64,000 bases of DNA from Anaerosacchariphilus polymeriproducens. Its GTDB lineage: Bacteria > Bacillota > Clostridia > Lachnospirales > Lachnospiraceae. The position numbers and the translations under genes were made by a program. The notes under the pieces were generated by a model that worked only from the letters and a program-made list of their open reading frames with translations, made no database searches and had not been told where the DNA came from. Shown piece after piece: positions 40,412-46,319 of this stretch. The stretch covers positions 124,001-188,000 of the forward strand of contig NZ_QRCT01000050.1 in the NCBI RefSeq assembly GCF_003363435.1. Reading direction: 5' to 3'. Within the stretch, counting starts at the first letter, position 1; every line of letters begins with the position of its first letter.

Positions 40412-40426
40412 ATGGTAGTCAGATGA
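40412..40426 (+). CDS. Four-codon mini-ORF coupled to uvrA
   Basis: ATG-GTA-GTC-AGA-TGA starts five bases after AGGAG, and its TGA overlaps the uvrA ATG as ATGA. The ribosome binding site is well spaced for this ORF and too far (16 bases) for uvrA itself, suggesting translational coupling. May equally be chance. Confidence 0.35.
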
Positions 40427-43293
40427 ATAATAATAATGATAAACAATATATAAAAATCAGAGGAGCCAATGAACACAATTTAAAAAATATAAATTTAGAT
40501 ATACCAAGAGAGGCGTTTGTAGTACTTACGGGCTTGAGTGGTTCCGGAAAGTCTTCCCTTGCATTTGATACTATATATGCGGAAGGGCAGCGTAGGTATA
40601 TGGAATCTCTATCTTCTTATGCCAGGCAGTTCCTGGGACAGATGGAAAAACCGAATGTTGAACGGATTGATGGACTTTCTCCGGCTATTTCGATAGATCA
40701 AAAGTCTACCAATCGAAATCCGCGCTCTACAGTTGGAACGGTAACAGAGATTTATGATTATTTCAGACTTCTATATGCCAGAATCGGAGTACCGCATTGT
40801 CCGAATTGTGGGAAAGAAATAAAAAAGCAGACTGTGGATCAGATGGTGGATCATATTATGGAATTGCCAGAAGGGACAAAAATACAGTTGCTTGCACCGG
40901 TAGTCAGAGGACGCAAAGGGGAACATGTCAAACTGTTCGAACAGGCTAAGAAGAGCGGTTACGTCCGCGTGAATGTAGATGGAAATTTATATGAACTTTC
41001 AGAAGAAATTAAATTAGACAAAAATATAAAACATAATATTGAAATTGTAGTAGACCGTCTGATTATTCGTCAGGGTATTGAAAAAAGGTTGACGGATTCC
41101 ATTGAAAATGTACTGGATCTGGCAAACGGACTTTTATTAGTTGATGTTCAAGGTCAAGAACCAATACGTTTTAGCCAGAGTTTTTCCTGTCCGGACTGTG
41201 GAATTAGTATCGATGAAATTGAGCCGAGAAATTTTTCTTTTAATAATCCATTTGGAGCCTGCCCGGATTGTTATGGTTTAGGTTACAAAATGGAATTTGA
41301 TGAAGATTTAATCATACCGAATAAGAGTTTGAGCATTAATGAAGGCGCTATTGTTGTAATGGGCTGGCAGTCCTGTACAGATCCATCTAGTTTTACTTAT
41401 GCGATTTTGAAAGCATTATCAGAGGAATATCAATTTGATTTGGATACACCATTTGAAGAATTAAGTTCTAAAGTTAGGGATGTACTGCTTCATGGAACAC
41501 GGGGAAAAGAAATGAAAGTTTATTATAAAGGTCAACGTGGAGAAGGTGTATATGATGTAGCTTTTGAAGGAATTGTTAAAAATGTGGAGCGAAGATACAA
41601 AGAGACCGGTTCAGATACGATGAAACAGGAATATGAAAGTTTTATGAGAATTACACCTTGTAAAGAGTGTGGCGGACAGCGGTTGAAAAGAGAATCCTTA
41701 GCAGTGACGGTATCTGGGAAGAATATTGCTGAAGTGACTGATATGTCCATAGGAAGCCTTCATCAGTTTCTTTCGCAGATGCAATTGACACCTCAACAAG
41801 AAATGATTGGGAAACAAGTGTTGAAACAGATTCGGGCACGTATTGGATTTTTAATTGATGTAGGATTAGATTATCTTGCGCTGTCAAGAGCTACGGCCAC
41901 GTTATCAGGTGGAGAAGCTCAAAGAATCCGTTTGGCCACTCAGATCGGCTCCGGTTTGGTCGGCGTAGTATACATTTTAGATGAACCCAGTATTGGACTC
42001 CATCAAAGGGATAATGATAAACTTCTGAATACCTTAAATAATCTAAAAAATCTGGGAAATACCTTAATTGTGGTAGAGCATGATGAAGACACCATGCTGG
42101 CTGCGGACCATATTGTTGATATCGGACCGGGAGCCGGAGAGCATGGCGGTGAAGTTGTAGCACAGGGAACACCGGATGAAATTATGAATGTAGAAGAATC
42201 CATTACAGGAGCATATCTTAGTGGCAAAATTAAAATGGCGGTTCCGGAAGTAAGAAGGGAACCTAATGGCTATTTGGAGATAAAAGGTGCCGGTGAAAAT
42301 AATTTAAGAAATATAAAAGTGAAAATTCCATTAGGAATAATGACATGTGTAACAGGTGTTTCCGGATCGGGAAAAAGTTCTTTGATTAATGAGATTTTAT
42401 ATAAACGTTTGGCAAGAGATTTGAATCGTGCACGGACCATACCAGGTAAACACAAAAGTATGGAAGGTATTGAACAGTTAGATAAAGTAATTGATATTAA
42501 TCAGGCACCAATAGGGAGGACGCCTCGTTCCAATCCGGCTACGTATACCGGAATATTTGACCAAATTCGGGATTTGTTTGCTTCAACTCCTGATGCAAAG
42601 GCAAAAGGTTATAAAAAAGGCCGCTTTAGTTTCAATGTAAAAGGCGGAAGATGTGAAGCGTGCGGCGGAGATGGAATTATCAAAATAGAAATGCATTTTC
42701 TTCCGGATGTATATGTGCCGTGTGAAGTATGTGAGGGAAAACGTTATAATCGTGAAACCTTGGAAGTTAAATATAAAGGGAAAAACATATATGATGTGCT
42801 TAATATGACGGTAGAGGAAGCACTTGGCTTTTTTGAAAATGTACCATCGATTCACAGAAAAATAAAGACGTTGAATGATGTTGGATTGTCATATATTAGA
42901 TTGGGTCAGCCATCTACGACTCTTTCAGGAGGGGAAGCCCAAAGAATTAAACTTGCAACAGAGTTGAGTAAAAGGAGCACAGGGAAAACTATCTATATTT
43001 TAGATGAACCTACGACAGGATTACATTTTGCTGATGTTCATAAGTTGATTGAGATATTACGGAGATTATCAGAGGGAGGGAATACAGTAGTAGTAATTGA
43101 ACATAATTTAGATGTTATTAAGACAGCAGATTATATTATAGATATGGGACCCGAAGGCGGAGATGGCGGCGGCTTGGTAATAGCAGAAGGGACACCGGAA
43201 GAAGTTGCAAAGTGTAAAAAATCATATACAGGACATTATGTAGCGAAATATTTGAAAAAGGATAAAGAAGAAAGAAGAAGTTCAAGAAAGTGA
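40423..43293 (+). CDS. uvrA: Excinuclease ABC subunit A
   Basis: 956 residues, two tandem ABC ATPase modules: Walker [10 protein letters not shown] (about 37-45) and GVSGSGKSS (second half), signature motifs LSGGEAQRI in both, and zinc modules CPNCG, CPDCG...CPDCYGLG and CEACGGDG...CEVCEGK. It finds DNA lesions and recruits UvrB. The ATG lies 16 bases from the ribosome binding site; a four-codon ORF fills the gap. Lys/Arg-rich tail. comF follows. Confidence 0.97.
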
Positions 43294-43304
43294 GGTAGTA
43301 TTTA

Positions 43305-44039
43305 ACGAAAATTAAAATTAATAATAGGACGATAGTAGAAAATATAATCTCTTGGGTATTTCCCGGGAGATGTCCTATATGCCACCGTATTGTCAGTCAA
43401 AAAGGGAAAAAGGTGTGCAAGGAATGTGAAAAAAAACTAGAATATATTAAGGAACCACGTTGTAAAAAGTGTGGAAAAGCAATAGATAATGATATAAAAG
43501 AATACTGTTTCGAATGTGAAATGAAAGAACATGATTTTACACAGGGAAGAGGAGTATTTGTATATCAGGAAGAGATGAAGCAATCTATCTATCGATTCAA
43601 GTATAGGAATAAAAGGGAGTATGCTGATTTTTATGTGGAAAAAATTGCTGAAGAGTATAGAGAATGGATTTTCTCTTGCAGACCGCAAGTTTTAATTCCT
43701 GTTCCTCTTTATAAATTTAAAAAAAGACAAAGAGGATTTAATCAAGCTGAAATTTTGGCAGATAAACTAGGAAAAGTGCTTAATATTCCAGTAGAATCCA
43801 ATTTGGTGATCCGATGTAAGAAAACGATACCACAAAAAGAGCTTAGTGAAAAAGAAAGAAAAAATAATATGAAAAATGCTTTCAAAATCACACAAAGTGC
43901 GGTAAAATTAAAGAGGGTAATGTTAGTAGATGATATATATACTACAGGGAGTACGATTGATGAGGTGGCTAAAATACTAAAAAAGTCTGGGGTAGATGAA
44001 GTCTACTTTATTGTTGTCTGCGTCGGGCGAGGATATTAG
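43305..44039 (+). CDS. comF: ComF family phosphoribosyltransferase-like protein with non-canonical start
   Basis: Homology by eye begins well upstream of the first usual start codon (GTG 43413): the same frame back to 43305 encodes KIKINNRTIVENIISWVFP and then GRCPICHRIV...VCKEC, the zinc-finger head of ComF. The only stop-free start window has ACG at 43305, eight bases after GAGGT (overlapping the uvrA stop), so ACG initiation or an ATG-to-ACG mutation is likely; this gives 244 residues. C-terminal PRPP-binding motif MLVDDIYTTGST. ComF acts in DNA uptake/transformation. With GTG 43413 the product would be 208 residues and lose the first zinc cysteine pair. Confidence 0.78.
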   Translation, partial: TKIKINNRTIVENIISWVFPGRCPICHRIVSQKGKKVCKECEKKLEYIKEPRCKKCGKAIDNDIKEYCFECEMKEHDFTQGRGVFVYQEEMKQSIYRFKYRNKREYADFYVEKIAEEYREWIFSCRPQVLIPVPLYKFKKRQRGFNQAEILADKLGKVLNIPVESNLVIRCKKTIPQKELSEKERKNNMKNAFKITQSAVKLKRVMLVDDIYTTGSTIDEVAKILKKSGVDEVYFIVVCVGRGY

Positions 44040-44049
44040 GAGGTAGCTT

Positions 44050-44454
44050 ATGGATGTGCGTAATTGTAGGGAATGTGGAAGGTTATTTAATTATATAGGT
44101 GGAATTAAGTTATGTCCCGATTGTATAGAAGCGTTAGAAAAGAAATTTGCGGATGTTAAGGAATACATTTATCAAAATGAGAACTGCGGTATTCGCGAAG
44201 TTTCTGATGCTGTTGGCGTATCTGTTGCACAGATAAAGCAATGGGTAAGAGAAGAAAGACTTATCTTTTCGAGCAAAGCCGGAAGCGTTATTGAGTGTGA
44301 GTTATGTGGCGCACCTATTGTCACAGGAAAGTATTGCCAAAAGTGTAAGGATAATATGCAGAAACAACTTACTAGTGTTATGGATCATCCGACAGTGGAG
44401 AAATCACGCAAAGCAGTAAGAGATAAGGATCGTATGCGTTTTTTGGATAAATAA
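44050..44454 (+). CDS. yvyF: YvyF-like flagellar-operon protein
   Basis: 134 residues. N-terminal zinc knuckle CRECGRLFNYIGGIKLCPDC (ligands at about 6, 9, 22, 25), a central helix-turn-helix-like part (IREVSDAVGVSVAQIKQWVREERLIF) and a second CELC...CQKC knuckle. It matches the YvyF/TIGR03826 family, which in B. subtilis sits in the comF-yvyF-flgM order; here it follows comF by 10 bp, but no flagellar gene follows. Probable regulator; exact role unknown. Confidence 0.8.
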   Translation: MDVRNCRECGRLFNYIGGIKLCPDCIEALEKKFADVKEYIYQNENCGIREVSDAVGVSVAQIKQWVREERLIFSSKAGSVIECELCGAPIVTGKYCQKCKDNMQKQLTSVMDHPTVEKSRKAVRDKDRMRFLDK

Positions 44455-44746: not shown

Positions 44747-45640
44747 GTGAAAGATTTTTCTTTTTGGGAAGAATATGAAGGAACATCAGAAGGTAGTGGT
44801 CGAAGTGAAAAAATTTGGCTGATAAATCCTGACACAGGACAAACAGGACTGTTTAAATATAAAAAAGATGAAAATACTACTGATCATGTTTCTGAATGCT
44901 TGGCTTACCATCTAGCACAATTAGTTGGAATTCCATGTGCAAAATTTGAATTAGGTGTTTATTTTGATAGAGAAGGTTCCATGAGCTATAATATAATTAA
45001 AAATAAAGATGAAATACTGATAGAGGGAATAAGTTTTCTGAATTATGAATATCCACATTATAATCCAGAAAAATTTATTGATGTTAAAAGTGGAGCAGTA
45101 TACTCGTTAGAAATGATAGAGAAAGTAATGAGTAAATTTATAAATTTTATTGATTTTTTAAAAATACCAATTTTTGATTATTTAAGTGGAAATTCAGATC
45201 GTCATCAAAGTAACTGGGCTATTTTAGTAAAAGGGATTAGAAAAACATTTTCACCTTTATATGATAATAGTTCATCTTTATGTGCATATTTATCAGAAAA
45301 TCAAATTAGAGGATATTTGGGAAATGATAAACTTAGATGGAGATCTTTAGTTCAAACTAAGTCTAAATCTTTGATTAGGAGAACAATAGATGAAAAAGAA
45401 AGACCAACGCACCTTGAAATGATGCAATATATTAAGGATAAGTATTATGACGAAACAAAAGACTTCGTAAAAAAAATAGTTACTGTGATGACTAAAGAAA
45501 ATATTTGTGATATACTAAATCGATATACGGATGTTGAATTGAAAAGAAATAAAAAAATCATTATTGAAAAGTTTCTATTAGATAAAACTAATGATTTGAA
45601 AGTTTTATACTTTGGAAAGGAGGAGGAAAATGTCGATTAA
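44747..45640 (+). CDS. HipA/HipT-like serine-threonine kinase, N-subdomain absent
   Basis: 297 residues. Starts directly at the kinase core: glycine/serine-rich loop GTSEGSGRSEK (12-22), ATP-binding lysine in GLFKYKK (about 37), conserved Glu50, catalytic loop GNSDRHQSN (148-156, Asp151) and metal-binding LYDNSS (Asp173). These match HipA-fold kinases (HipA/HipT/CtkA). The roughly 100-residue N-terminal subdomain of full HipA is missing. GTG start after AGGTG; -10-like TATAAT at 44632 with no clear -35. Overlaps the next gene by 11 bp. Likely a toxin or signalling kinase. More AT-rich than its neighbours, suggesting transfer. Confidence 0.82.
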   Translation: MKDFSFWEEYEGTSEGSGRSEKIWLINPDTGQTGLFKYKKDENTTDHVSECLAYHLAQLVGIPCAKFELGVYFDREGSMSYNIIKNKDEILIEGISFLNYEYPHYNPEKFIDVKSGAVYSLEMIEKVMSKFINFIDFLKIPIFDYLSGNSDRHQSNWAILVKGIRKTFSPLYDNSSSLCAYLSENQIRGYLGNDKLRWRSLVQTKSKSLIRRTIDEKERPTHLEMMQYIKDKYYDETKDFVKKIVTVMTKENICDILNRYTDVELKRNKKIIIEKFLLDKTNDLKVLYFGKEEENVD

Positions 45641-46319
45641 AAACGGTAAAGATTACTTGTACTTAGTATGGAAGTCTGATTCCACGCGAAGACAATATAT
45701 TATTGGTCAACTTTCAAAAAATGGACAATATGAATTTCAGTATTGTGGAGAGGTTCAGAGTGCTATAGAAGCCGGATTTACTCTACTTATTCCTTTTCCA
45801 GATATTAATACACTATATAGTAATAACGTATTGTTTCCAGTTTTCTCTAGCCGTTTGCCAGATAGAAAACGAAAAGATATTGTTACTATTTTAAAAAAAT
45901 ATGATTTAGAAAAGTATGATGCGTATGAGTTCTTAAAAAAGAGTGGGGCTAGGTTACCTATTGATAATTTACAATTTATAGATCCTATTTTAGATTTTAA
46001 CACCTCTTTTAAAAGAAGATTTTATATGGCGGGTGTAAGACACTATTTGGGGTGTGATGGAGAAGAGTGTGAAAATACAATTAATGTAACACGTGGAGAT
46101 GAGGTCTTTCTAAGAAAAGAACCATACAATAGTTTTGATTCTCATGCTATTCAAGTTATAAATGAAAATCAAAAACTTTTAGGGTATATTCCAAGATATT
46201 ATAGTGATGCTTTTACTAGAATTATTAATGAAGGAAGAAATATTAGCTGTTATGTTACTAATGTTGATAAAAATAAATGTTGTAGTGAGTGTATTACTTT
46301 GACTGTTACAGTGAATTAA
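45630..46319 (+). CDS. HipS-like (HipA N-subdomain) and HIRAN fusion protein
   Basis: 229 residues from ATG 45630 (AAAGGAGGAGG upstream, inside the kinase gene). Residues about 22-118 follow the pattern of the HipA N-terminal subdomain: IGQLSKNGQYEFQY, LLIPFP, then LFPVFSSRLPD...ILKKYDLEKYDAYEFLKKSG, parallel to the VFNFFDNLLPD region of HipA. Residues about 130-229 are a HIRAN domain (MAGVRHYLG..., VTRGDEVFLRKEPYNSFDSHAIQV, LGYIPR). HIRAN binds 3' DNA ends or damaged DNA in HLTF-type proteins. The subdomain missing from the adjacent kinase thus appears here, as in HipS/HipT. Predicted antitoxin or sensor partner. Confidence 0.72.
   Translation: MSIKNGKDYLYLVWKSDSTRRQYIIGQLSKNGQYEFQYCGEVQSAIEAGFTLLIPFPDINTLYSNNVLFPVFSSRLPDRKRKDIVTILKKYDLEKYDAYEFLKKSGARLPIDNLQFIDPILDFNTSFKRRFYMAGVRHYLGCDGEECENTINVTRGDEVFLRKEPYNSFDSHAIQVINENQKLLGYIPRYYSDAFTRIINEGRNISCYVTNVDKNKCCSECITLTVTVN

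Follow-up and report, generated by a model that had tools for sequence, protein, structure and literature searches.

The Staphylococcus aureus genes ccpN and cvfC1 have AUU/AUA start codons preceded by extended Shine-Dalgarno (SD) sequences, and in poor medium they give about 10% of the output of AUG (PMC13009471). In Streptomyces, IF3 represses the GTC start of sigR, a codon present in 32 of 34 species and replaced by GTT in the other two (PMC5472188). Concerning the gene product discussed here, the zinc finger of Helicobacter pylori ComFC is required for DNA uptake (PMC9005727).

The comF gene of Anaerosacchariphilus polymeriproducens is located in a stretch of 64,000 nucleotides, which was analysed as a whole and is called the window in what follows (Table 1). 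The stop codon TGA of the preceding gene, uvrA, occupies nucleotides 43291-43293 and overlaps a GAGGT motif at 43292-43296, as had been stated in a preliminary description of this DNA, while the comF frame has a stop codon of its own, TAG, at 43296-43298. Downstream of this TAG the comF frame reads TAT TTA ACG AAA ATT AAA, the ACG being at 43305. The preliminary description had also claimed that no ATG, GTG or TTG is found in this frame between the stop at 43296 and a GTG at 43413, and sequence, coordinates and frame all bear this out. As in genes of the infC, ccpN and sigR type, a full-length comF protein has no ATG, GTG or TTG start available. A fusion of the comF and uvrA frames was ruled out because the end of uvrA is out of frame with comF, which is closed off upstream by the TAG at 43296.

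Table 1. Coordinates of the features of the comF locus within the window
Feature	Position	Strand	Remarks
uvrA, immediately 5' of comF	40423..43293	+	From ORF and sequence; stop codon lies inside the comF SD
Extended Shine-Dalgarno AGAAAGTGAGGT	43285..43296	+	Complementary to the entire anti-SD apart from one bulged T; overlaps the uvrA stop
ACG, most likely comF start codon	43305..43307	+	Spacing of 9 nt, counted from the last G of the SD core
comF, ComFC-like, N-terminal double zinc ribbon and phosphoribosyltransferase domain	43305..44039	+	244 codons from ACG, then stop TAG
GTG, first in-frame standard start codon	43413..43415	+	A start here would cost the zinc ribbon its first CPxC; SD energy -5.9, spacing 4 nt
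Small zinc-ribbon gene, usual comF neighbour, downstream	44050..44454	+	ATG start

The zinc-finger N-terminus was found in frame upstream of the GTG at 43413, as previously noted: in the read-through frame PF18912 matches residues 17-73 (E-value 3.4e-15, 56.1 bits, cut-off 27). It is followed by a match above cut-off to PF00156 at residues 145-241 (8e-9), and the translation includes the sequence VDDIYTTGST, that is, a C-terminal phosphoribosyltransferase domain with a DD..TTG loop. Initiation at the GTG would generate a 208-amino acid ComF lacking the first CPxC pair. Although this is the first standard codon and is preceded by a weak SD-like GGGA (-5.9 kcal/mol), half of the zinc ribbon would be lost, the strong SD located upstream would be left without purpose, and the first zinc-ribbon cysteine is aligned in 192 of 198 comF loci read in the family (the remaining six are three duplicates, two in which this part is not aligned and one running off its contig). 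A start at the GTG is thus very improbable. Because H. pylori ComFC needs its zinc finger (PMC9005727) and a comEC gene is present in the genome of A. polymeriproducens, a full-length ComF is likely to be useful to this organism, competence itself being a prediction.

The extended SD pairs over its whole length, with a single bulge, with the 3' end of 16S rRNA, and the duplex energy is -13.8 kcal/mol. For comparison, the best standard starts were scored for 46 long ORFs of the window; their 90th percentile is -12.4, and the comF SD lies beyond it. The ACG had been described as lying eight bases after the GAGGT, which is correct; counted from the final G of the core the distance is 9 nt, a frequent spacing, shared by 6 of 35 scored genes of the window. 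The RNA around the start is nearly unstructured (-1.2 kcal/mol). A strong SD, a proper spacing and a codon with one mismatch to ATG are all present at this ACG, and no rival codon combines them. When a short scoring window was used the in-frame codon with the best SD was not the ACG but the TTA at 43302, which shares the same SD at a spacing of 6 nt. Use of this TTA, or of the ATT at 43311 (15 nt), as the start is quite unlikely, since the former has two mismatches to ATG, the latter is too distant from the SD, and the relatives place a codon with just one mismatch at the distance set by the SD.

We consider it likely that comF is a working gene translated from the ACG at 43305. ACG as a start is rarer and probably weaker than AUU or AUA; the extended SD would set the initiator fMet-tRNA on the mismatched codon, and the product would start with Met-Lys-Ile-Lys and include the whole zinc ribbon. 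Because the comF SD overlaps the uvrA stop, ribosomes finishing uvrA might assist initiation at comF, i.e., the two genes could be coupled by re-initiation. Since IF3 disfavours near-cognate starts, the output of comF is expected to be low and would rise once IF3 proof-reading relaxes.

A comF match was found in 393 of 397 genomes of the family. The 198 loci that were read, in sets of 30 (L001-L030, which include the locus described here), 48 and 120, are the best matches listed and not a random draw; 192 distinct loci were kept after removing the three duplicates, the two without the cysteine aligned and the one off the contig end. A locus was scored as having no standard start when the region 7 or more codons upstream of the first zinc cysteine contained no ATG, GTG or TTG. 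By this definition a standard start is absent in 15 of the 192 distinct loci, including that of A. polymeriproducens; rather than being confined to this strain, the trait turns up repeatedly in the family. In 13 of these 15 loci a near-cognate codon (ATT, ATA, ATC, ACG or CTG) is found behind an SD. The codon is ATA in L007, L022, L174 and L197, ATT in L014, L055, L151 and L158, CTG in L031, and ACG in the locus described here and in L111; in L036 and L037 an ACG is directly followed by ATC and ATT, respectively. Among the 192 loci the ACG of A. polymeriproducens thus has a single parallel, L111, besides the two in which ACG stands beside ATC or ATT. No convincing near-cognate codon with an SD was seen in the other two of the 15 loci, L020, which has no convincing SD, and L077, which is a distant Halobacillus match. 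In six further loci (L004, L009, L040, L124, L130 and L145), identified by reading, a near-cognate codon follows a strong SD and a standard codon exists as well. In L086 a strong AAGGAGGG is located 15 nt before the nearest TTG and there is no near-cognate codon at normal spacing. Outside the family, none of 25 readable comF loci lacked a standard start in a small sample of 29, four of which had no readable motif; near-cognate comF starts may not be general beyond the family, the sample being too small to call them confined to it. No report of near-cognate comF starts was found in the open-licence PMC literature.

When a conserved residue served as a stricter anchor, a standard start was missing in 12 of 191 comF loci vs. 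none of 569 loci of ten neighbouring gene families (Fisher p 5e-8, which is only a guide because related rows are not independent). The control total had been 681 before the removal of the 112 rows of control L013_2235, the query of which is a recD2 fragment with an internal anchor. Another control query, 46909_47925, with 17 of 47 loci scored as without start, was discarded as an anchor artefact; the N-terminus of this query had probably been placed 5' of the true start. SDs are stronger in the comF loci that lack a standard start than in the others (median -11.2, n=14, vs. -8.8, n=174; p 0.0006), and near-cognate codons have stronger SDs than after shuffling of the labels within loci (p 0.0009). 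A possible excess of TTG and GTG as a trait specific to comF was ruled out: ATG accounts for 81 of 136 strong-SD standard starts of comF and recD2 is alike (59 of 92), near-cognate codons being what is specific to comF. Since at least 10 changes of start state (15 when the six extra loci are included) are required on the comF tree of 188 rows, the tree indicates that near-cognate starts arose repeatedly and were not inherited once. Support around the A. polymeriproducens comF is low (33 and 61), and L111, the second case of an ACG behind a strong SD, belongs to the five-member group that includes it (support 61).

A direct search by genus showed that all five species of genus g18 lack a standard comF codon and have ATA behind GGAGGC or GGAGGT. 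In genus g88 the codon is ATA or ATT in five of six species, and the SD upstream of it is AAGGAGG, AAGGAGG-like or AGGAGG. A standard codon is missing altogether from four of the five, and L271 offers just a TTG preceded by a weak SD; in the remaining species, L268, a TTG with an SD is present. Within g88, two start regions that are almost identical have ATA and ATT, respectively, at one site. The genome search also yielded g88 frames of about 1000 amino acids, running from recD2 into comF, with one TAG. In L266, L267 and L269 recD2 ends at a TAG that is in frame with comF, one codon ahead of its ATA or ATT, and readthrough would fuse both proteins; such readthrough is not needed, as an AAGGAGG is found just before the ATA or ATT in all three. 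For L174 and L197, both of which have ATA starts, the dN/dS ratio of comF is 0.196, indicative of purifying selection, as expected of a functional gene with a retained weak start and not of a decaying one. As read from these sequences, comF in the relatives recurrently uses near-cognate starts, i.e., rare weak codons behind strong SDs.

These data bear on two other explanations of the ACG. One is that the codon is really ATG and that the ACG is a sequencing or assembly error, which could be imagined for a single codon in a draft genome of 50 contigs; similar starts are however present in independent genomes. One of them, G340/L022 of genus g18, is a single-contig genome rated 100% complete, and because it shows a near-cognate start, sequencing error is disfavoured as a general cause; we regard it as most improbable here. 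The other explanation is that a recent ATG-to-ACG mutation crippled comF and that the gene is heading for loss. ACG is one step from ATG, and the move of comF from its usual place behind recD2 to a place after uvrA may have disturbed the start region. On the other hand, the frame is intact over its 244 codons with both domains, the very strong SD is retained, comEC is present in the genome, and near-cognate starts have come up repeatedly and are maintained throughout whole genera. Because of this recurrence, genus-wide occurrence and purifying selection, a decayed start is unlikely. The preliminary description had left the choice between use of the ACG and an impaired comF. The first is favoured by the strong SD, the 9-nt spacing, as for the AUU of infC, and the near-cognate codons of many relatives at the same place, among them the ACG of L111; the second is disfavoured by the intact ORF, the recurrent near-cognate codons, with AUA or AUU in whole genera, and the selection detected in one AUA pair. 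The gene is therefore probably not broken but working, with what would be a deliberately low output.

The rearrangement itself is evident from the position of the genes. The gene directly 5' of comF is recD2 in 146 of 192 loci (two query names were counted as recD2, among them the recD2 fragment) and none of four tested genes in 45, and uvrA was not found directly upstream of comF in any of the 191 other loci. The comF gene and its downstream zinc-ribbon partner have been rearranged in the A. polymeriproducens genome (43291-44454), because they follow uvrA while recD2 is located away from them on contig C47, in the order flgG-flgJ-recD2-murB. The partner gene, presumably yvyF-like, was matched in 120 loci of relatives, none of which lacks a standard start. 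Further downstream, nucleotides 44747-46319 include a split HipA-like pair, consisting of a HipA_C gene and a gene with HIRAN plus a HipA N-terminal domain (Couple_hipA).

Gene finders accept ATG, GTG and TTG, and because of this ComF is likely to be annotated too short, with half of the zinc ribbon missing, or to be missed in these genomes. The comF family offers a case in which the recurrent gain and the retention of AUA, AUU and ACG starts can be traced across many species. Should these weak starts serve regulation, the fidelity of translation initiation would set a limit to natural transformation in abundant gut bacteria.

The closest parallel is infC, the autoregulated gene of IF3, which in this genome and family has the same near-cognate type of start, strong SD and 9-nt spacing as comF. 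In A. polymeriproducens infC has GGAGG, a 9-nt spacing and ATT, and as a positive control 29 of 30 family loci (L199-L228, this genome included) were found to start with ATT (28) or ATA (1), the spacing being 9 nt in 23 of the 30 and 8 nt in 6. These genes begin with ATT AGC/AGT/AAC (one with ATA) behind GGAGG-type SDs, and in most of them a tempting in-frame ATG is found four codons further on. The two genes differ in that infC regulates itself and almost the whole family shares its type of start, whereas comF is not a translation gene, its codons vary (ATA, ATT, ACG, CTG) and many relatives have ATG, GTG or TTG. We suggest, tentatively, that the Lachnospiraceae comF could be a second gene beside infC under start-codon proof-reading, in which recurrent AUA or AUU starts (here ACG), found across whole genera, together with extended SDs would tie a DNA-uptake protein to the level of IF3 and the state of the ribosome, uptake being throttled at translation initiation.

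The combination of a weak start and an extended SD is also that of ccpN (AUA) in S. aureus and Bacillus subtilis and of S. aureus cvfC1 (AUU), whose starts were located with ribosome profiling and reporter assays, whereas comF is known from its sequence (PMC13009471). By analogy a strong cut in the output of comF is to be expected, and its near-cognate start probably limits translation as in infC, sigR and ccpN. The sigR gene shares the non-standard start, the long SD and, for comF of genera g18 and g88, the conservation within a genus, with a third-base exchange, GTC/GTT, comparable to ATA/ATT in comF; repression by IF3 has been proven by genetics for sigR, while the likeness of comF is one of start anatomy (PMC5472188). 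With respect to the protein, comF has the zinc finger and phosphoribosyltransferase domain of the ComFC of natural transformation (PMC9005727), and differs in that in Lachnospiraceae, where it is known from genes, it stands alone beside recD2 and the zinc-ribbon gene.
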